This document shows positions 37,966 to 47,884 of a stretch of DNA of 64,000 bases, piece after piece (the first letter of the stretch is position 1; each line of letters begins with the position of its first letter). The notes under the pieces are model-generated. The model ran no database searches. It had not been told where the DNA came from and saw only the letters and a list, made by a program, of their open reading frames with translations. The translations under genes and the position numbers were made by a program. Source of the DNA: Planctomycetota bacterium (lineage in GTDB: Bacteria > Planctomycetota > Planctomycetia > Pirellulales > PNKZ01). The stretch spans positions 62,001-126,000 of the forward strand of contig JAFEBQ010000032.1 of NCBI GenBank assembly GCA_018242585.1. The letters run 5' to 3'.

Positions 37966-38541
37966 GTGAACACCGAAACATTAATCCTTACTGTGATTGT
38001 CGTTGCGTTTACCGCTGTGGCGGCCGTGACGGACTTTCGCACCAAGCGATTGCCCAACTGGCTGACAGTTCCGTGTTTTGCCACCGGACTGGTCTTTCAC
38101 ACCGCATTGGGCGCCTATCACGGCGGCCTTGGCGGCGCGTGGCAGGCGTTGCTCTGGTCGCTGGGCGGCTTTGCGGTTGGGTTTGGGATTTTGCTCGGGC
38201 TGTGGCTGATCGGCGGTGGTGGCGCTGGCGACGTCAAGTTGATGGGCGCCCTCGGCGCGTGGCTCGGTTGGAAGGGAACCATGTACGTGTTCGTCATCAG
38301 CACCTGCCTGGTGATGGTGTTCGCCATGCTCAGCCTGGCGTCGCAAATGATCGGGCGCGGGATGGGCTTTGTGCGGCGTCGTTACCTGACGCCGATCGAC
38401 GGCAGTGCCAAAACAAGTGATGAAGCGCGCGTGGCGATGAAGACTCGCCGCCGCCTGTTGCCGTACGGCGTGCCGGTGGCGCTGGCCACTTGGGCCGTAC
38501 TGGCCGCGCAGTTGGTGATCTTTGCTCACGTGACGAAATAG
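37966..38541 (+). CDS. cpaA: Tad pilus prepilin peptidase (A24 family, CpaA/TadV)
   Basis: 191 residues from GTG 37966, preceded by GGTAGG. The two aspartates of A24 peptidases are present, in TDFRTKRLPNW and GGGAGDVKLMGA. Several hydrophobic segments make it an inner-membrane enzyme. CpaA/TadV cleaves the leader of Flp-type pilins and the TadE/TadF pseudopilins after a glycine. It is the short form without the N-methyltransferase domain of PilD, as usual in Tad loci. It is the first gene of a seven-gene plus-strand cluster and its stop lies 3 bp before tadE. Confidence 0.92.
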   Translation: MNTETLILTVIVVAFTAVAAVTDFRTKRLPNWLTVPCFATGLVFHTALGAYHGGLGGAWQALLWSLGGFAVGFGILLGLWLIGGGGAGDVKLMGALGAWLGWKGTMYVFVISTCLVMVFAMLSLASQMIGRGMGFVRRRYLTPIDGSAKTSDEARVAMKTRRRLLPYGVPVALATWAVLAAQLVIFAHVTK

Positions 38542-38544
38542 CGG

Positions 38545-38997
38545 ATGAGCGAGATGGGATTGATGAAAAACCAAGACGTGAAGGTTGAGAAGCTGCGAGC
38601 CAATCGTCGCCGGCGCCGTTTGGGCGCGGTGGTGACGATGGAGTTGCTGCTGGTGTTGCCGATCGTGTTGGCGCTGTTGTTGGGGCTGGTCGAGTTCAGC
38701 ATGTTGTGGATCGCCCGGCAACACGTCCAGGAGTCGGCGCGCTCGGCCTGTCGAGTGGCGACCTTTTGTGGAAACAATCCCGCGGCGGTCACCGAGGCGG
38801 CCCAGTTGGCGTTGCGCAAGCAGTCGCTGGTGCAGAATGCCCAAGTGCTGATTCGCGGCGGACAGTTTAGCGGCGATCTGGTGGCGGTTCGCGTGGCGGT
38901 GCCCATGCGAGCGGCGGCACCCGATCTGTTGAGCATGTTTGGCCTGGGCTTTGGCCAGGCCGAGATCGCCGCCGAAGCGGTGATGCGAAAAGAGTGA
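38545..38997 (+). CDS. tadE: TadE-like pseudopilin
   Basis: 150 residues. A basic N-terminus (RANRRRRRLG) precedes the hydrophobic segment AVVTMELLLVLPIVLALLLGLVEFSML, the TadE hallmark. The likely prepilin cleavage is after Gly27, which puts the conserved Glu at +6 of the mature protein rather than the more usual +5. Two cysteines (SACRVATFCG) follow the helix and may form a disulfide. TadE is a minor pseudopilin needed for Tad pilus assembly. It overlaps cpaA closely (3-bp gap), so translation is probably coupled. Confidence 0.9.
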   Translation: MSEMGLMKNQDVKVEKLRANRRRRRLGAVVTMELLLVLPIVLALLLGLVEFSMLWIARQHVQESARSACRVATFCGNNPAAVTEAAQLALRKQSLVQNAQVLIRGGQFSGDLVAVRVAVPMRAAAPDLLSMFGLGFGQAEIAAEAVMRKE

Positions 38998-39075
38998 GCG
39001 TACGCGGCGAACAACTAACCGTTTAGATCAAGGTTCTGACTGGGCGAAAACCGCTCGGCAACAAGGGTTTTAATC

Positions 39076-40200
39076 ATGGGTCGATTCAACACCGGTACGA
39101 TGACCGTCGGCATTTTTGCCGTCCTGTTCGGGCTTGTGGGGGCCTACGCCCTGCGCGCCGCGCTGGTGCGCGAAGCGCCGCCGGCCAAAGAGCCGCCGCG
39201 AACCGTGAATGTCCCCTTGGCGAACAATCTGCTGCCCGAGGGACGCAAGGTCGCACTCAGCGACATCGCCCTGGTGCCGATGACCCAGGAAATGATGTTG
39301 CAGCGCAAGCTGCCACTCGAGACGTTGATGATCAGTGCCGAGCAGATCGTCGGCCGCACGATTCGTGAAGGCTTGAAGCCGGGCGAGCCCTTCCTGACCA
39401 CGAACTTCTATCCCGATGGAACCGGTCCCGATCTGTCCAAGAAGCTCAAGCCGGGCCTGCGGGCAATCACGATTCCGATCGACGATCTAAGCTCGGTCGG
39501 CGCGTCGACCGCCGTGGGTTCGATTGTCGATGTGCTGTTCCGCGTCAAGCCGGTTGACGGCGATCGGGCCAAGCGCAAGCTGCCGATCCCCGAAGCCACG
39601 GTCACCTTGGTGCAGGCGGCCGAGATCATTGCCATCAATCGCAACGAGCCGACCAGCCGCAATCCGAACGGCGCGGTTGACGTGCGAATGGCCAACCAGA
39701 TGCCAAATACGAACGCCTTCCGTTCGGTGACGCTGGCCGTGACGCCCGAACAGGCTCACATGCTGCGAACCGCGATGGGGCACGGTGACTTGTACTTGAT
39801 GATGAGTTCGACCAGCCAGCCGCCGGCCCACGCCATCGAGCCGACCACGCTGGAGCAGATGCTCGGCATCAAGGCGCCGCCGGAGCCGTTGACAACCGAG
39901 ATCTATCGTGGCGGCGGACGCCAGACGCTGATCTTTGAAGACAGCCAGCTCGTCGAAGAGCGGTTTGGCGGCGTGCCGGCCGACGCCTCGAAGGCCACCA
40001 TTGCCGATCCCAAGGCCAACGACGCCAAGCCGAACAACAACGATTCGAGCTCGAACAACATGAACAACTGGAATTGGTCCCGCTTCCGGCCGACGAACGG
40101 CATGGGGGGCGGCTATGGTGGCGGATTCCCCTACGGAACCACGCAGTATCCGGTGGGTTACCCGGGCACCCCTTCCTACCCGCCTGGCTACGGCAACTAA
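39076..40200 (+). CDS. cpaB: Flp pilus assembly protein CpaB/RcpC (SAF domain)
   Basis: 374 residues. The N-terminal segment MTVGIFAVLFGLVGAYALRAAL is a membrane anchor or signal. A SAF-type domain follows (VNVPLANNLLPEGRKVALSDIALVPM...GRTIREGLKPGEPFL), then RAITIPIDDLSSVGASTAVGSIVDVLFRV, the second CpaB strand set. The C-terminal 60 residues are low complexity: Asn-rich, then Gly/Tyr/Pro-rich (GGGYGGGFPYG, YPVGYPGTPSYPPGYGN), unusual for CpaB and perhaps a wall or matrix contact. CpaB works with the secretin in the periplasm, although no secretin gene is present here. Confidence 0.9.
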   Translation: MGRFNTGTMTVGIFAVLFGLVGAYALRAALVREAPPAKEPPRTVNVPLANNLLPEGRKVALSDIALVPMTQEMMLQRKLPLETLMISAEQIVGRTIREGLKPGEPFLTTNFYPDGTGPDLSKKLKPGLRAITIPIDDLSSVGASTAVGSIVDVLFRVKPVDGDRAKRKLPIPEATVTLVQAAEIIAINRNEPTSRNPNGAVDVRMANQMPNTNAFRSVTLAVTPEQAHMLRTAMGHGDLYLMMSSTSQPPAHAIEPTTLEQMLGIKAPPEPLTTEIYRGGGRQTLIFEDSQLVEERFGGVPADASKATIADPKANDAKPNNNDSSSNNMNNWNWSRFRPTNGMGGGYGGGFPYGTTQYPVGYPGTPSYPPGYGN

Positions 40201-40234
40201 CCGCCACACGCTTCAGTGCTCAGTGAACCCTGTT

Positions 40235-40269
40235 AACGAGCCCTGGGGCCACCTACCCCTGGGCTCGTT
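40235..40269 (+). promoter_or_regulatory. Strong hairpin between cpaB and tadG
   Basis: AACGAGCCC (40235-40243) pairs with GGGCTCGTT (40261-40269), extended by an inner GGGG/CCCC stem. No T-run follows, so it is more likely an mRNA processing or stability element, or a partial attenuator, than a full terminator. Confidence 0.6.
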
Positions 40270-40320
40270 GCACAAACGACCTGCCTGCCATCCCGCCTGC
40301 AAACCCAGCCCCTGACGAAC

Positions 40321-41586
40321 ATGTATCGCCAATCGATCATCAAGACGAGCGGTTCGCGCCTGCCTCGGCGAGCGAGCGCCGGTCCAGCGCGCCCTTGCGA
40401 CGCCAAGGTCCGGGCCGCCAGCCGCCGCGGCAACGTCACGATTGCGATGATCGTCGTGTTGGTGGTGGTGTTGATGTTCGCGGCCGTGGCGTGGAACGTG
40501 GCCTGGCTGCGGCATACGCATAGCGAACTACAGACCGCGTGCGAGTCAGCCGCTTTGGCCGGCGCGGCACAGTTGGCCAACCCGCTGGGGGGCAGCGATC
40601 GTTCGCAAGCGATTCTCAACGCGCGGCAAGCGGCGCTGTCGATTGCCACGTTTCATCATGGCGCTGGTCAACGCATCGCGCTGCTGGACAACCCCAAGAA
40701 TCTGCCGACCGGCGATGTGGTTGCCGGCCTGATTGCCGAACCGACACAAGTCGGCGCGCCGATGCAGCCTTGGCAAGGGACCGGCGATGTGAACACGATT
40801 CGCATCGTGGCTCACCGCAACCATGGCCGCGGCAACCCGTTGGGGGTGCGGCTGGGCCAGATGGCCGGCGTGATGACCGCCGACGTCAGCGCCCATGCCC
40901 AGGCCACGATCGATCGACGCGTCTACGGCTTCCGTCCCAAAGGGGTGGCTACCTGCCCAGTGATGCCGCTGGTCGTGGATCGCTCGGCCTGGAACATGGC
41001 CACCAGCAACCAGTCGGTGACGGATCGCTTTACCGTCGACGTTCGACATTCCCAGGTCCTTCTCGGCGGCGACGGCGTGGCCGAGATCACCGTCTCGGCC
41101 TATTTGAACGCGGCGGCCATGAGCGCCGACCCGAACGCGACGCCAGCCACGCTGTGCCGACTGGCGCTCAGTGACGACGCGCAGGGCAACGACACCGAAT
41201 TGAGTCGACAAGTCAGCCAAGGCCTGACGGCTCGCGATCTGCGTGCCTGGCAAGGCGCGCTGCTGATCCCGACGGGAGGCTGCCCCGCCCCGGTCTACAA
41301 CTTTGTGCCGGCGGAGTTGACTAGCTTGTTGCTAAGCGTGCGCGGTCAGCCGCGGGCGTGGCCGTTGGCCCAGTTGGCCACCTCAGCCACCGGCGCCGTG
41401 GCCTCGCAAGTGACGTTGGTCGATTTCATGGCGGCCACGGTGGTCGATGTGGAACTCGACACCGTGTCGCAGCCTCCCCGCTTGTTGGTGACTTTGCAAC
41501 CGACGCCGCTGGCCACGAGCAGCGCGTTGGCGGCTCCTGGATACCCGGCCAACCCCTGGTTGGCCAAGTTGATGTTGTCTCGATAA
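40321..41586 (+). CDS. tadG: TadG-like Tad pilus protein
   Basis: 421 residues. After a basic start comes SRRGNVTIAMIVVLVVVLMFAAVAWNVAWLRH, the pilin-like N-terminal helix typical of TadG/TadE-type proteins; this copy has no Glu in the mature helix. The following LQTACESAALAGAAQLA matches the start of TadG pilus proteins. The remaining 330 residues are mainly beta, with RSAWNMATSNQSV and PSQVTLVDFMAATVVDVEL-type segments, and no von Willebrand MIDAS motif was recognised. It probably lies in the periplasm or on the surface, anchored by the helix. Confidence 0.82.
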   Translation: MYRQSIIKTSGSRLPRRASAGPARPCDAKVRAASRRGNVTIAMIVVLVVVLMFAAVAWNVAWLRHTHSELQTACESAALAGAAQLANPLGGSDRSQAILNARQAALSIATFHHGAGQRIALLDNPKNLPTGDVVAGLIAEPTQVGAPMQPWQGTGDVNTIRIVAHRNHGRGNPLGVRLGQMAGVMTADVSAHAQATIDRRVYGFRPKGVATCPVMPLVVDRSAWNMATSNQSVTDRFTVDVRHSQVLLGGDGVAEITVSAYLNAAAMSADPNATPATLCRLALSDDAQGNDTELSRQVSQGLTARDLRAWQGALLIPTGGCPAPVYNFVPAELTSLLLSVRGQPRAWPLAQLATSATGAVASQVTLVDFMAATVVDVELDTVSQPPRLLVTLQPTPLATSSALAAPGYPANPWLAKLMLSR

Positions 41587-41666
41587 CCCTGGCGGCCGGC
41601 GCCACCGCGTGGGGCCGACCGACGAAGCAGACGAACGCGACGAGTAACGAACCCGAGGAACCGATC

Positions 41667-43007
41667 ATGATCAACATGACTGCGACACCGGCGAGCGAAG
41701 CCTTGAACGCCGAGCATGAATTCCAGCGCGTCAAAGCCCGAATTCATGAACAGTTGGTCGAGTCGTTCGACTTGTCGCGCGTGGGCAAGATCGACGTCAA
41801 GGTGCTGCGCAACGAAGTGCATGGCATGGCCAAGGCGGCCTGCGACTCGCGCAAGGAGCTGCGCGGCGTCGACCACGAACGCCTGGTCAACGAGCTGATG
41901 GACGAAATCTTCGGCCTCGGTCCCTTGGAGCGGCTGATGGCCGACGAGACCGTCTCCGATATTCTGGTCAACGGTCCCGGGGCGGTGTACGTCGAACGGA
42001 ACGGCCGGCTGGAGCAGACCGACATTGTGTTTGCCGACGACGCGCACCTGTTGCGGATCATGCAGCGGATCGTCGCCAAGCTGGGCCGGCGCATTGACGA
42101 GTCGAACCCGATGGTCGATGCCCGTCTGGCCGACGGCAGCCGTGTGAACGCCGTGATTCCGCCGTTGTCGCTGGAAGGCCCGACCCTGTCGATTCGTCGT
42201 TTCGGCCATCACCCGTTGACAATCGACGACTTGCTGGCCAAGCAATCGATTTTGCCCGACATGGTCAAGTTCTTGCGGGCCGCGGTCGACGCCCGGGTGA
42301 GCATGTTGATCTCGGGGGGCACCGGCGCCGGTAAGACGACGCTGTTGAATGTTCTGAGCCGGTTCATCCCGGCCGAAGAGCGGATCATCACCATCGAGGA
42401 CTCGGCCGAACTGATTCTGCAACACAAGCACCGGGTACGCATGGAAACGCGCATGCCCAACACCGAGGGACTGGGCCAGGTCACGCAACGCGATCTGGTG
42501 CGAAACAGCTTGCGTATGCGGCCCGACCGCATTGTCGTGGGCGAAGTCCGCGGCGCCGAAGTGTGGGACATGTTGCAAGCCATGAACACCGGTCACGAAG
42601 GTTCGCTGACCACAATCCACGCCAACACCACGCGCGACGCCCTGACTCGCTTGGAGATGATGTCGGCCATGACGGGCTTTGAACTGCCGATCGACGTCGT
42701 GCGACAGTACATCGCCTCGGGTATCACGCTGGTGGTGCATGCATCGCGCTTGAAGGGTGGCCCGCGCCGGATCATGCAGGTGTCGGAAATCCTCGGGGTT
42801 CGCAACGGCCAGTTCGAGATCGAAGACGTATGCGGATTTGAGCAGACCGGCGTCGACGCCAATGGCGTGGCGGTCGGCGAGTTCTTCTTCACCGGTTACC
42901 AGCCCAAGTGCCTGACGCGGATTCAAGCGGCCGGTGGCAATCTGCCCGCCGAACTGTTTGTCAAACGCCGCCTGGCCGTTGGCACGCCGCGGTCGGCCGG
43001 AAACTAA
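41667..43007 (+). CDS. cpaF: Tad pilus assembly ATPase CpaF/TadA
   Basis: 446 residues from ATG 41667, with GAGGAA 6 nt before it; the open frame upstream overlaps tadG and is not used. The secretion ATPase core has VNGPGAVYVERNGRL, the Walker A GGTGAGKTT at 217-225, the Asp box around EERIITIEDSAEL, Walker B RPDRIVVGEVRGAE and the His box GHEGSLTTIHANT. This is the GspE/VirB11-family hexamer that powers Tad pilus extension and, in this family, retraction. It sits in the canonical order before tadB and tadC. Confidence 0.96.
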   Translation: MINMTATPASEALNAEHEFQRVKARIHEQLVESFDLSRVGKIDVKVLRNEVHGMAKAACDSRKELRGVDHERLVNELMDEIFGLGPLERLMADETVSDILVNGPGAVYVERNGRLEQTDIVFADDAHLLRIMQRIVAKLGRRIDESNPMVDARLADGSRVNAVIPPLSLEGPTLSIRRFGHHPLTIDDLLAKQSILPDMVKFLRAAVDARVSMLISGGTGAGKTTLLNVLSRFIPAEERIITIEDSAELILQHKHRVRMETRMPNTEGLGQVTQRDLVRNSLRMRPDRIVVGEVRGAEVWDMLQAMNTGHEGSLTTIHANTTRDALTRLEMMSAMTGFELPIDVVRQYIASGITLVVHASRLKGGPRRIMQVSEILGVRNGQFEIEDVCGFEQTGVDANGVAVGEFFFTGYQPKCLTRIQAAGGNLPAELFVKRRLAVGTPRSAGN

Positions 43008-43073
43008 GCTGAAACCTCCGGCTGCCGCGACCAGCAATGGCCGACAGCTTGAGCCCAGAGGGAATGAGACATC

Positions 43074-43994
43074 ATGGATACGACACTGCTGCTGTACGCG
43101 AGCTTGCTGGTGGTGCTGGTCGGCGCCACGGTGGTGCTAATGGTGCGCGACCTGAACGCGGCCGGCAACAGCGGCGCCGCTGTGGAAGAAAGCATTCGCC
43201 TGTTGCCGCCGCCGGTGGCTGACGCGTTCAAAGGTCAGTTCACCGATCGGATCGACTGGCGGTTTCGTCGTTTGGTCTACCAGACCGGGCTCGACATTAC
43301 CGCCGAACCGGCGTTTCTGTTAATTATCCTTTGCGGCCTGGCCGTGGGGGGGACGGTATTCGTCGCCCGCGACGACATCCTCGAAGCGGTGATGGCATCG
43401 CTGGTCGGACTGGCCGCGCCGGTGGCGTTCTTCACGTTCCGTCGTGGCCGGCGCTTGGCGGCCATTCGCGCTCAGTTGCCCGAGGTGATGGACCTGATGT
43501 CGCGGGCCGTGCGCGCCGGCGAGACGCTGGATCAGGCGATCGGCCAGGTGGGCGTGTCGATGCCGGTCCCACTGGGAATTGAGTTTCGCCGCTGTGCCCG
43601 ACAACTCGACATGGGCTTGTCGCTGCCGGCGACCATGCGGGCCTTGATCGCTCGCGCGCCGTTGACCGAGGTGCGAATTCTGGCCGCCACGTTCAACGTG
43701 CAACGTCGCAGCGGTGGTAATCTGGCCATCACGCTCGATCGTCTAGCCGGCGTCATTCGCGACCGCATCAGCTACCAGCGACAGTTCATGGCGGCCACCG
43801 GCGCCAGCAGAATCGCCACCCTGGTCGTTTCGCTAGCCGGCCCGACCGTGTTCACGTACATGATGATGTTCGAGCCCGAGTATGTCGGGCAATTCTTTGT
43901 GGTGCCGGGCGGGCAGTTGCTATTGGGGCTGGCCTGCGTGCTGCAATTCGTGGGGCTGGTCTGGGTGGCCGGGCTGCTGCGCAACGACTACTAA
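43074..43994 (+). CDS. tadB: Tad pilus inner-membrane platform protein TadB
   Basis: 306 residues. Hydrophobic segments at about 3-23, 80-120 and 250-300 surround a cytoplasmic GspF-type domain with LPEVMDLMSRAVRAGETLDQAIGQVG and IRDRISYQRQFMAATGASR. TadB pairs with TadC to form the platform that transmits CpaF ATPase motion to the pilus. The gene follows cpaF by 66 bp and has GAGGGA upstream of the ATG. Confidence 0.93.
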   Translation: MDTTLLLYASLLVVLVGATVVLMVRDLNAAGNSGAAVEESIRLLPPPVADAFKGQFTDRIDWRFRRLVYQTGLDITAEPAFLLIILCGLAVGGTVFVARDDILEAVMASLVGLAAPVAFFTFRRGRRLAAIRAQLPEVMDLMSRAVRAGETLDQAIGQVGVSMPVPLGIEFRRCARQLDMGLSLPATMRALIARAPLTEVRILAATFNVQRRSGGNLAITLDRLAGVIRDRISYQRQFMAATGASRIATLVVSLAGPTVFTYMMMFEPEYVGQFFVVPGGQLLLGLACVLQFVGLVWVAGLLRNDY

Positions 43995-44042
43995 ACTGAC
44001 TCTTGCTGATACGACCGCGCTTGACGCGGGGAGCCGACGAGC

Positions 44043-44960
44043 ATGTTAATCGAACTTGTGACCCTGGCGGCGTTCTTCGGAATCGTGGGCCTGGTCTTCT
44101 TTCTGCGATCGCTGGTGCGCGGCTGGCGCGGCGGGATCCAGGAACAAATCGCCAATGAAGCTAGCGAGGCTCCGACTCGCGGCCCGTTGTTTGGTGAATG
44201 GACCGAGGCTTTGGCGTCCCAACTTCCGTCGCTGATGGGCTCGACTGACGATCTGACCCGCGACTTGCAGCGCGCTGGCTACTACAAGCCAACCGCTCGC
44301 AGCGAATTCCTGGCGCTGCGTAACGCCTTGGCGATCTTTTGCATTGTCATGACCGGTATCTATGCCGTAATGGTCGGTCCCGAGCGCCGCGACTTGACGG
44401 CGCCAATCTTGATCTGGGGGATGGCGATCAGCGCGTTGGTCTATGTCTTGCCGTGGATTGTCTTGCGGATGCAGGCCAAGCGGCGGTTGCACATGATCCA
44501 GCGCAGCATGCCCGACGCGTTTGATATGTTGACCATGTGTATGACGGGCGGTCTAGCATTCAACGACGCGCTGGGGCACGTTTCGCGCGAAGTGGTGTTC
44601 GCCCATCCCGACATGGCGGTCGAGCTTGAAATCGTGCGCCGTCACGCTGACATGAATACGATGGGACGCGCGTTCGAGAACTTTGCCAAGCGCATCGACA
44701 CGCCCGAGGTGGTTTCGATGGCGGGGCTGGTTTCGCAGAGCGAACGGCTGGGCACGAACATGGTGGCCGCGGTGCGCGAATACGCCGACGGCGTCCGCTT
44801 GATGCATCGCCAAAACGCCGACGAGCGCGCCAACAAGGCCGGTATCAAGCTGTTGTTTCCGATGGTGCTTTGTTTGGCCCCCGCAGCGATGATCATATTG
44901 TGGGGCCCGGCCATCCTTGAACTGCGGAACTTCTTCCGCACGTTTAACGTAACGAACTAG
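44043..44960 (+). CDS. tadC: Tad pilus inner-membrane platform protein TadC
   Basis: 305 residues, similar in plan to tadB. N-terminal segment LVTLAAFFGIVGLVFFLRSLV, a pair of segments near 95-140, and a GspF domain with SMPDAFDMLTMCMTGGLAFNDALG and VSQSERLGTNMVAAVREYAD, then a C-terminal pair around LLFPMVLCLAPAAMIILWGP. It is the last gene of the operon. A clear rho-independent terminator follows within 45 bp. Confidence 0.93.
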   Translation: MLIELVTLAAFFGIVGLVFFLRSLVRGWRGGIQEQIANEASEAPTRGPLFGEWTEALASQLPSLMGSTDDLTRDLQRAGYYKPTARSEFLALRNALAIFCIVMTGIYAVMVGPERRDLTAPILIWGMAISALVYVLPWIVLRMQAKRRLHMIQRSMPDAFDMLTMCMTGGLAFNDALGHVSREVVFAHPDMAVELEIVRRHADMNTMGRAFENFAKRIDTPEVVSMAGLVSQSERLGTNMVAAVREYADGVRLMHRQNADERANKAGIKLLFPMVLCLAPAAMIILWGPAILELRNFFRTFNVTN

Positions 44961-45004: not shown

Positions 45005-45039
45005 ACAGGGAGTTCGGGCACCAGGTCCGAACTCCCTGT
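45005..45039 (+). terminator. Rho-independent terminator of the tad operon
   Basis: ACAGGGAGTTCGG (45005-45017) pairs with CCGAACTCCCTGT (45027-45039), a 13-bp perfect stem with a 9-nt loop, followed by TTGCTTTT. Confidence 0.88.
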
Positions 45040-45226: not shown

Positions 45227-45589
45227 ATGTCTCGCTGCCTTTCGAACCTGTGTATTGAGACCGACGCCGCCATCATTTCGGCCGAATTGATCATCATCCT
45301 AACTGTTTTGGTCATTGGTGTTTGTGTCGGTGTGACCTCGATTCGCGACGCTATCGTGACCGAAATGGCCGACGTCGCCCAGGCGATTGCCAACCTGAAT
45401 CAGAGCTTTGGGTTCAGCGGAGTGGCAGGTCACGCGACCGCCTCGGCCGGGAGCGAGTTCATCGACCGAGCCGACTTCTGTGACCGGTCGAACGCCACTG
45501 GCACCAATGTCCAGCAATCCAAGTGCGTGGTTGTAGGAGGGTTCGTCCACCCATTGGGCGCGAACACCGACGGAGCAAATAGCCCGTAA
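45227..45589 (+). CDS. Pilin-like small protein, family copy 1
   Basis: 120 residues. A short N-terminus (MSRCLSNLCIETDA) precedes AIISAELIIILTVLVIGVCVGV, a class III/Flp-like helix with a Glu six residues after an Ala that could be position -1. Then comes the block shared with 46021 and 47884: RDAIVTEMADVAQAIANLNQSF, FSG, GH, AGSEFIDRADFCD. The C-terminus (QQSKC, then LGANTDGANSP) is shared with 46021 only. It lies just after the tad terminator, with CCGGAGAG before the ATG, so it is transcribed separately. A weak promoter candidate is TTGATA at 45160 with TAGTGT at 45182. Proposed role: pilus subunit or surface protein processed by CpaA. Confidence 0.82.
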   Translation: MSRCLSNLCIETDAAIISAELIIILTVLVIGVCVGVTSIRDAIVTEMADVAQAIANLNQSFGFSGVAGHATASAGSEFIDRADFCDRSNATGTNVQQSKCVVVGGFVHPLGANTDGANSP

Positions 45590-45680
45590 AACACAGGCTT
45601 TTTATCGAGCCATCAACGAACGGCTCGACCGCAGAACCGGTGAAGAATCGGGCCTGCGATCGAGCCGACAAGACAAAGAA

Positions 45681-45714
45681 AAAGGGCGGCCAACCTATGG
45701 GTGGGCCGCCCTTT
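45681..45714 (+). terminator. Rho-independent terminator
   Basis: AAAGGGCGGCC (45681-45691) pairs with GGCCGCCCTTT (45704-45714), followed by TTTCGTTT. It ends the transcript of pilin-like copy 1. Confidence 0.88.
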
Positions 45715-45793
45715 TTCGTTTCCAGTCGAGGTGTTCCAAAGAAAACGATCTGGATGAATAAATAAAATAGATGATTTAAATAGATAAAATAGC

Positions 45794-45822
45794 TTGACAC
45801 GAATAAATCGACTAAATAGTAT
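45794..45822 (+). promoter_or_regulatory. Near-consensus sigma70-type promoter
   Basis: TTGACA at 45794-45799, 17-nt spacer, TAGTAT at 45817-45822. It is about 200 bp upstream of pilin-like copy 2 and is one of the two best promoter matches in the window. Confidence 0.72.
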
Positions 45823-46020
45823 CGGATGTGTTGAGTGAATGAGTGGCTTTGAGAGTGTGGTGACTTTCTTGGCTGCCCTCGCTCGGCTGGCTGGTATTTC
45901 CCCCAAAGCTTACCGGAGGACGATCGCGAGCCGACGCAGCATGCGTCAACACAATTTGAAGCGCAGTCCAGCGTGGGCAGCGCGAAATCTCGTTAGTGCT
46001 TCATTTTTTGGAGAGAGAAA

Positions 46021-46380
46021 ATGAAGGTTGTTCAGCGTCTGTGGAGTGAACAGGAAGGTTTCTTGTTGTCGGCGGAGGCCGTCTTGTACGCGAGCATTGC
46101 GGTGCTCGGCGTGATCGCTGGTTTCGGCGCCGTCCGCGAAGCGGTGGTCACCGAATTGGCTGACGTGGCTCAGGCCATTGCCAACTTGGACCAGAGCTAC
46201 TCGATCAGCGGTACCTTCGGCCACTGCGCCGTTACTGCTGGCGGTCAGTTCGTCGACTTGCCGGACTTCTGCGATAGTTCGGTCACCACGACCAACTTCC
46301 AGCAGTCGAAGTGTGTGCAACTGTGCGTCAGCGTGCATATCCCCGGCGCGGCCAATTTCGACGGCAGTACCTCGCCGTAG
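46021..46380 (+). CDS. Pilin-like small protein, family copy 2
   Basis: 119 residues, with GGAGAGAG before the ATG. The N-terminus MKVVQRLWSEQEGF leads into FLLSAEAVLYASIAVLGVIAGFG, again with a Glu at +6 after a Gly. The shared block reads REAVVTELADVAQAIANLDQSY, SISG, GHCAVTAGGQFVDLPDFCD. QQSKC and the ending IPGAANFDGSTSP match copy 1. Cysteines in GHC, DFCD, SKC and QLC could form disulfides outside the membrane. It has its own promoter and terminator. I infer a Tad-associated major or minor pilin; a periplasmic or surface role unrelated to pili is the alternative. Confidence 0.82.
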   Translation: MKVVQRLWSEQEGFLLSAEAVLYASIAVLGVIAGFGAVREAVVTELADVAQAIANLDQSYSISGTFGHCAVTAGGQFVDLPDFCDSSVTTTNFQQSKCVQLCVSVHIPGAANFDGSTSP

Positions 46381-46681
46381 TCGTTACTTGGTCGATCGAC
46401 CGGATTGTTGGGTCGCATGATGCAGACCCACAGCCAAATGAAAAGCCAGGTTCGAGCATGCCTCGAACCTGGCTTTCTTTGTTTTTCCACCGTGACTCTT
46501 TGCCAGGCAAGACTTGCTGATCCCTAAGTCGAGCCCGGCCACGGGTGCGAGGGGCGACATTTCACGTCATCGAATCGGCGGTCGAAGGAGAGAGAAGTTT
46601 TTCTTCCGCTGAATCTATTGATGAATGAAGCTGTTGTCCTCGTTGGTGACACCCGTGACACGCGGCCCGACTGTCTTTGGT
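46381..46681. other. Convergent intergenic region
   Basis: Separates pilin-like copy 2 from the convergent LRR gene. Holds the terminator at 46442-46476. From 46480 to 46681 I see no supported gene. Confidence 0.5.
46442..46476. terminator. Rho-independent terminator, probably bidirectional
   Basis: AAAGCCAGGTTCGAG (46442-46456) pairs with CTCGAACCTGGCTTT (46462-46476), a 15-bp perfect stem, followed by CTTTGTTTTT on the plus strand. Confidence 0.9.
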
Positions 46682-47884
46682 TCAACGGATCACGGTCAGG
46701 TGGGGTAGTCCCTTTTCGAGCCTGGCCCAACCCTCGGCCGAGATTTGCGCCCAGGGAAGCGACAACATCTGCAAGTTTTTCATTTTTAGGAGCGCGTCGA
46801 CTCCCTTGTCCGAGATGCCACCGCTGACGATGAACAACCGCTTCAGCGTGCCAATCTCGGCCAACTCGGCCAGTCCGGCGTCGGTGATCTCGCTGCCGAC
46901 CAGGTGCAGCTCTTCCAACTCGCCGAGCTTTTTCAGGTAGATCAACCCGGCGTCGGTCACGCCGCTGCCGGCAATCTGCAACACGCGCACCCCCGGCATC
47001 GTTGACAACTGCTTGAGTTGCTCGTTGCCGACCACGTTGAACCGCATATCGATCCCTTGGGCCTGTTGGGCGCGCACCACGACCGCTGGTGCCGGGTGAA
47101 TTGGCGGAGGCGTGAACATCACGCGCGGGCCAGCGTTGTATCCTTCGGGCAGCCCCCCGCCGAGGCAATGCAGACAGCCGTACCCAAAGCCTGGGGCATG
47201 GACACAACCCGAATTGGCTGCGATCAGTCCCCGCAACGCGGCACAGTTCGGAACGACCGGCGGGCAGACCGGCGCGACAGCCGGAGGCGGGCATGGAGGA
47301 GCCGGCGGTGGGCATGGTGCCGCGGGAGGCACAATCGTGGCCGTCGTGGAAACCGTCACGGTAATCACGCCGGACTTGGTTGTGACCGTGACGCAAGGCT
47401 GCGAGGTCTGAACCGCCGTTGCCGTCACCGTCGCGGTCGCGACTGGAGCCGGCGCGGGAATAACGACTGGCGGCGCGGCAGCCACTTCTGGCTGTGGAAC
47501 GACTGCTGGTGGCGGTAGAACAGGCGGAGTGGGTGGCGCGACCGCGGGAGCTTGCGCCATCGGCGTGCTGCCGAACACATCGGCACAGACCAGAATCTTG
47601 CCCGGCGCGTGCGCCACCAGGCCACGATCGACCGAGTCGGCGCGATCGATGAACGAACTGCCGGCGGTGAACGAGCTGTGACCGACCACGCCGCTATAGG
47701 CGTAGCTTTGGTCCAAGTTACCGATGGCGGTGCTGATGTCGGCCATCTCTTCGACGACCGTGTCGCGCAAGGCCGTCCAGCCGACGACGCCGCCGACGAC
47801 GACCATCGAGCCGGCCAGCACCAACTCGCTCGCAGCCAGGAATCCAAACTGTTCGCGCCACAGGCGCCGCAAAAGCAATCTCAT
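46682..47884 (-). CDS. Pilin-like domain fused to leucine-rich repeats, family copy 3
   Basis: 400 residues from ATG 47884, with GGAGAG before it. Residues 1-95 match copies 1 and 2: WREQFGFLAASELVLAGSMVVVGGVVGW with a Glu at +6 after Gly, then RDTVVEEMADISTAIGNLDQSY, YSG, GHSSFTAGSSFIDRAD. Residues 110-215 are a Pro/Ala/Val/Thr linker rich in PCPPP-type repeats. Residues 215-260 hold a Cys/Gly-rich knot (GCVHAPGFGYGCLHCLGG). From about 295 to the end are four to five LRRs of the ITDAGLAEL type. The likely product is a pilin-like anchor presenting an LRR head. It has many more cysteines than its neighbours. No cell-wall anchor motif is seen. Confidence 0.85.
   Translation of the reverse strand: MRLLLRRLWREQFGFLAASELVLAGSMVVVGGVVGWTALRDTVVEEMADISTAIGNLDQSYAYSGVVGHSSFTAGSSFIDRADSVDRGLVAHAPGKILVCADVFGSTPMAQAPAVAPPTPPVLPPPAVVPQPEVAAAPPVVIPAPAPVATATVTATAVQTSQPCVTVTTKSGVITVTVSTTATIVPPAAPCPPPAPPCPPPAVAPVCPPVVPNCAALRGLIAANSGCVHAPGFGYGCLHCLGGGLPEGYNAGPRVMFTPPPIHPAPAVVVRAQQAQGIDMRFNVVGNEQLKQLSTMPGVRVLQIAGSGVTDAGLIYLKKLGELEELHLVGSEITDAGLAELAEIGTLKRLFIVSGGISDKGVDALLKMKNLQMLSLPWAQISAEGWARLEKGLPHLTVIR

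Follow-up and report, generated by a model that had tools for sequence, protein, structure and literature searches.

Which protein forms the fibre of a Tad pilus whose operon has no classical Flp gene? This question is raised by three genes at positions 45227-47884 of the window (the whole 64,000-nucleotide stretch of DNA from a Planctomycetota bacterium analysed here). The initial annotation had proposed that their products, P0001, P0002 and P0003, are structural or minor subunits of the neighbouring Tad pilus. FAM is used below as a working name for the pilin family formed by these three products.

The Tad operon and its neighbouring genes

Using Pfam and NCBIfam models, we found a Tad operon at 37966-44960 on the plus strand, with the gene order cpaA-tadE-cpaB-tadG-cpaF-tadB-tadC. 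It encodes a CpaA/TadV-type prepilin peptidase of the A24 type (37966-38541; PF01478, E=3e-22), a TadE-like pseudopilin (38545-38997; PF07811, E=7e-10), CpaB/RcpC (39076-40200; TIGR03177, E=4e-30, above its cut-off), a TadG-like Tad-domain protein (40321-41586; PF13400, E=2e-10), a CpaF/TadA ATPase whose exact start is uncertain (41658-43007; PF00437, E=3e-63; TIGR03819, E=6e-103, just under the cut-off) and the T2SSF platform proteins TadB (43074-43994; PF00482, E=1e-15) and TadC (44043-44960; PF00482, E=2e-8). CpaF, TadB, TadC, CpaA and CpaB, the components by which a Tad pilus system is recognized, are all present. No Flp-type match was found in or near this operon. A secretin (CpaC/RcpA) and CpaE/TadZ, both present in the system on contig C2 of the same genome, were likewise not found near it.

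The three open reading frames were recovered as annotated, with P0003 on the minus strand. P0001 (45227-45589, plus strand, 120 aa) and P0002 (46021-46380, plus strand, 119 aa) are stand-alone proteins with a common C-terminus (..QQSKCV.....G....G..SP), as had been reported. P0003 (46682-47884, minus strand, 400 aa) is convergent with P0002; its pilin domain (47600-47884) is followed by a C-terminal part (46682-47599) consisting of a Pro-rich linker and then a leucine-rich repeat (LRR) domain at about residues 299-397 (PF13516, E=6e-6). Single-sequence AlphaFold2 gave alternating strands and helices for residues 321-400 at pLDDT 72-90, the model being good for the LRR part only. This type of C-terminal part is kept in Pirellula sp. 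PB1.007 (L077:11156-12331), where the LRR-bearing gene likewise converges with a plain FAM gene. The gene beyond P0003 (48058-48924, minus strand) looks papain-like by eye (CLSPARACVAM..., FDSDWGEAGCGWLPY) and gave no Pfam match.

All three products share, in the order first noticed, a Glu-containing helix, the block [ED]xAD[VI]xxAI[AG]NL[DN]QS[YF], an SG, a GH, an AG and F[IV]D..D. Judged by sequence, their likeness is far from chance, because a search with P0002 recovered the other window copies at E=1e-29 and 3e-22 (self-match E=2e-75), and an alignment of the ten copies in this genome has 13 invariant columns. Pfam and NCBIfam hold no model for FAM, and scans gave chance-level matches only (CinA/PncC, DUF2627).

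An intrinsic-terminator-like hairpin with a 15-pair stem and a T-rich tail follows tadC (45005-45039, plus strand). Therefore, the FAM genes in the window seem to be transcription units separate from the Tad operon. The initial description of pilin-like genes right after an Flp-less Tad operon thus holds for position and for the lack of Flp, but a single operon is not indicated. Similar hairpins with T-rich tails follow P0001 (45681-45714, plus strand; stem -25.8 kcal/mol) and P0002 (46442-46476, plus strand; 15-pair stem, -25.7 kcal/mol). A sigma-70-like promoter match upstream of P0002 (45794-45822, plus strand) is weak, with 1 found against 0.7 expected by chance. A terminator scan of the whole region gave 5 sites against 4.2 expected in shuffles, so single weak sites carry little meaning. 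Across the genome, a hairpin of -18 kcal/mol or lower follows 8 of 10 FAM genes compared with 17% of 120 other genes (p=2e-5). Strong terminators would be expected of single-gene units, and such units would fit pilins needed in quantity. An Rfam scan of the region gave no match.

Protein features and relation to Flp

Alignment of 206 distinct FAM members revealed a leader ending in W-x-[DE]-[ED]-x-G; 96% of the members have this Gly at the cleavage site, and 83% have Glu six residues beyond it. After the Glu comes a hydrophobic helix with two near-invariant Gly, R39, E45, D48, A52 and [DN]QS[YF], and the C-terminal part has conserved columns at G74, D79, D82, C84 and D85. In the window the leaders, with a slash at the predicted cleavage site, are MSRCLSNLCIETDA/AIISAEL in P0001, MKVVQRLWSEQEG/FLLSAEA in P0002 and ..WREQFG/FLAASEL in P0003. 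This is the arrangement of a class III leader (Gly at -1, Glu near +5), except that Glu is at +6 and that P0001 has Ala rather than Gly at -1. In Flp, Tyr stands directly after this Glu and makes core hydrogen bonds (PMC11067988); in FAM, Tyr occupies that column in only 17% of the 206 members. Flp/Fap pilins consist of a lone helix with no added domain; for P0002, AlphaFold2 predicts one continuous helix at residues 11-54 with a confident core, followed by a low-confidence hairpin and small C-terminal extension. Foldseek against the PDB returned no match, and FAM had no significant match among sequences of solved structures.

Profile comparison points to a relation with Flp. With hhalign, FAM aligned to Flp over 53 of 61 columns (87%, E=4e-6, score 32.8) with Gly and Glu in register, compared with 10.4 +/- 2.2 (max 16.3) for column-shuffled and 16.5 for reversed Flp controls. 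The value was 38% with a smaller FAM alignment, and therefore we rate homology between FAM and Flp as likely but distant. The match to TadE was 33% (score 26) over 24 columns only, and PF07811 does not detect FAM. PF04964, the Flp model, gave no match up to E=10 for P0001-P0003 or for short relatives. Hence the view of FAM as a family distinct from Flp is borne out in that it lies below PF04964 detection, but not in the sense of an unrelated family, since the profile alignment extends over nearly all of Flp. The short relatives (56-67 aa; GGVFVEYLLL, GGLVAAEY), found in related contigs, stand between FAM and Flp.

FAM variation was also seen in tandem arrays of 3-9 genes each, unlinked, in other genomes (L265-L270), with core tad genes not seen beside them except for CpaA next to the L270 array. 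Identities were obtained for four arrays. In L265 and L266 (9 copies each), mean identity is 96% over the leader-helix part and 58-59% over the C-terminal part; the corresponding values are 95% and 66% in L267, and 82% and 53% in L268.

FAM and Flp genes on the CpaF tree

For 102 CpaF sites, up to 20 kb of surrounding sequence was taken; with the window added, FAM, Flp and Tad genes were called in the neighbourhood of 105 CpaF genes. FAM was found within 8 kb of 54 of them, classical Flp within 8 kb of 27, and both near none. Neither pilin was found at 12 CpaF loci with at least 7 kb upstream; 11 further loci were too short, and one CpaF was dropped because its locus was already represented by another. 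For the loci whose upstream sequence was long enough, the mutual exclusion of FAM and Flp gave a Fisher p=1.2e-12, a value that overstates independence because the loci come from related genomes. As for the sampling, adjacency had already been noticed in hit lists when some of the first ~40 loci were chosen, and the later 60 were taken by score rank; the CpaFs were picked by similarity to the window's copy, so that distant ones are undersampled.

A maximum-likelihood tree was built from 93 CpaFs. The window falls in a clade of this tree (support 100/99) that comprises 54 loci with FAM, 8 with neither pilin and 0 with Flp. Outside this clade there are 27 loci with Flp, 4 with neither and 0 with FAM. 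This clustering was equalled in 0 of 500 label shuffles. Moreover, the genomes of all 8 loci with neither pilin inside the clade carry FAM elsewhere. The usual layout is 1-5 FAM genes directly before cpaA, cpaB or cpaF, which is the Flp slot of other systems. In the window FAM lies after tadC, most relatives having it before cpaA or cpaB. Some 4 kb from a FAM-type CpaF, a secretin gene is present in L168-L174, L202, L203, L227 and L229, on the opposite strand in L168-L174. In another locus (L195, G320:C3), two CpaF genes stand 1.4 kb apart and neither pilin type was found.

Distribution of FAM and its copies in the window's genome

In an even sample of the phylum, FAM occurs in 15 of 246 genomes, all in the window's class. 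Within that class it occurs in 98 of 249 sampled genomes, with up to 18 matches per genome; named relatives that bear it are Planctomycetaceae, Pirellula and Pirellulales MAGs. A tblastn search of plasmids with FAM gave no match. The 249 genomes of the class sample were also searched for CpaF, absence meaning no match at E<=1e-60. That FAM might occur mainly in genomes lacking Tad genes, a possibility raised at the outset, is not the case, as 97 of the 98 FAM-positive genomes have CpaF. FAM is present in 1 of 21 CpaF-less and 97 of 228 CpaF-bearing genomes (Fisher p=3e-4), counts for which, as for the other genome-level counts below, shared ancestry is handled by the CpaF tree only. The sole CpaF-less genome with FAM is a draft (G414) containing three FAM genes, in which either an incomplete assembly or loss of the machine could account for the lack of CpaF.

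FAM as a marker of Tad in general was considered and rejected, since 228 of 249 genomes have CpaF and only 98 have FAM. Rather, the presence of FAM is predicted by the CpaF clade: of the 56 genomes whose CpaF is of the window's type (at least 536 bits), 54 have FAM, compared with 44 of the other 193. Within genus g285, FAM and CpaF are both present in four genomes and both absent from four, and a ninth genome has CpaF alone.

The window's own genome (5.57 Mb) has ten FAM genes: three in the window, a tandem pair on contig C27, two singles on C15, and one each on C7, C12 and C53. Seven of the ten are unlinked to tad genes. Two further Tad systems, on C2 and C26 (L033, L037), each have their own Flp-type pilins. 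The C2 locus has a classical 61-aa Flp, a secretin and CpaE, and the C26 locus has CpaE and four paralogous Flp-like VEYA proteins. Orphan classical Flp genes that resemble the C2 type lie away from any tad operon on C2 and C12 (L034:9912-10097; L036:9932-10117; E=4e-9 and 6e-6). An extra short Flp-like main pilin, sought in this genome with the short FAM relatives, was not found. As to whether a true Flp elsewhere serves the window's pilus, the genome does have Flps, but the tad-adjacent ones belong to the C2 and C26 machines, and the two orphans are C2-like.

Proposed role of FAM in the Tad pilus

We consider it highly probable that FAM is a divergent group of Flp-type Tad pilins and that it stands in for classical Flp within a single planctomycete Tad lineage, the window operon included. 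This reading builds on the identity of the family, its linkage, the replacement of Flp, the leader motif and the distant homology to Flp. The role as structural or minor subunits proposed by the initial annotation gains support from the linkage to CpaF and from the replacement of Flp within one CpaF clade. FAM thus probably supplies the building blocks of a planctomycete surface fibre. A leader of about 13 residues would be cut by the adjacent CpaA-type peptidase before Ala or Phe. The mature N-terminus, with Glu at +6 and a helix of about 45 residues, would pack into a filament driven by CpaF, TadB and TadC, and the 50-65 residues after the [DN]QSY block (G/H, AG, DFCD and SKCV motifs) would form a small surface-exposed extension. 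The NLxQSY segment may lie outside the cell, as the initial annotation proposed. Several of the FAM copies in the genome are perhaps interchangeable. The LRR-fused P0003 may carry its LRR domain on a stalk, possibly as a minor pilin or tip adhesin; a division into major and minor roles, like adhesion, is a proposal.

It is unlikely that FAM provides only minor pilins, tip adaptors or TadE/F-like pseudopilins while another protein forms the main subunit. Many diverse copies per genome, the LRR fusion and the variable C-termini would suit tip proteins, and adaptable minor-pilin tips on one Flp fibre have a precedent in the Kil system of Myxococcus (PMC12075869). However, the surroundings of the 62 CpaF genes in the FAM clade yielded no Flp at all, and the window's genome has no extra short Flp-like relative to serve as that subunit. 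In addition, FAM aligns with nearly all of Flp and with TadE over 24 columns only, and the window already has a separate TadE and TadG.

A Tad-derived secretion device lacking a long filament, in which FAM would form a short periplasmic pseudopilus, has a small chance of being correct. Because the secretin and CpaE are missing from the window operon, no outer-membrane exit is encoded beside it. Against this, several related loci have a secretin gene about 4 kb away, and the window's machine might make use of the secretin encoded with the C2 Tad system. For planctomycetes, 12-nm pili-like fibres are also reported (PMC5394234), with no tie to the FAM system.

That FAM is an unrelated small membrane-anchored family, beside tad genes by chance or inherited gene order, would fit the location of most copies away from tad genes in some genomes but is strongly disfavoured, and of very low probability, in view of the CpaF tree, on which FAM and Flp loci separate 54 to 0, the prepilin leader and profile match to Flp, and the largely agreeing presence and absence of FAM and CpaF within genus g285.

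FAM as the Flp-type pilin of this lineage explains why these operons seem to lack a pilin when searched with the Flp model, and it suggests that a longer pilin bearing an additional exposed segment can serve a Tad machine. An HMM built from the FAM alignment can annotate members in 98 of 249 sampled genomes of the class. For planctomycete surface fibres, seen by microscopy (PMC5394234), a defined gene family and machine lineage can now be put to the test. A more tentative idea, which we rate as doubtful, is that this Tad lineage builds its fibres from dispersed interchangeable pilins, with a near-constant helix, variable exposed ends and in some cases adhesive domains such as LRRs, and that such fibres could be the pili-like ones observed on crateriform structures. 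Any link between FAM and the 12-nm fibres is speculation.

Comparison with known systems

A literature search found no paper naming a planctomycete Tad pilin or the pilins of surface fibres, and the consulted passages of PMC5394234, which describe 12-nm pili-like fibres on planctomycete crateriform structures, give no gene for them. Like the Flp/Fap pilins (PF04964; e.g. Caulobacter PilA and Flp1), FAM has a short Gly-ended leader and a Glu early in a long hydrophobic helix. FAM genes lie in tad loci (54 CpaF loci), before cpaA in many relatives, and the profile similarity covers nearly the whole Flp length. By contrast with Flp, FAM is below Pfam detection, has Glu at +6 and usually no Tyr after it, and occurs in many copies per genome, mostly unlinked in the window's genome. 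The middle half of its members are 106-120 aa long with a conserved 50-65 aa extension, whereas the Flps of the window's genome have 61 aa. TadE/TadF pseudopilins (PF07811) share with FAM a leader, a Glu-containing hydrophobic helix and a place in Tad loci, but their profile match is weak, covering 24 columns, and the window has a separate TadE. The closest functional parallel is the Kil Tad pilus of Myxococcus, in which numerous minor pilins make up adaptable tips on a single Flp fibre (PMC12075869). In both systems the Tad machine comes with a large set of pilins and with tip proteins that vary, but the major pilin of Kil is a single true Flp (KilP), whereas no Flp was found for the FAM machine.
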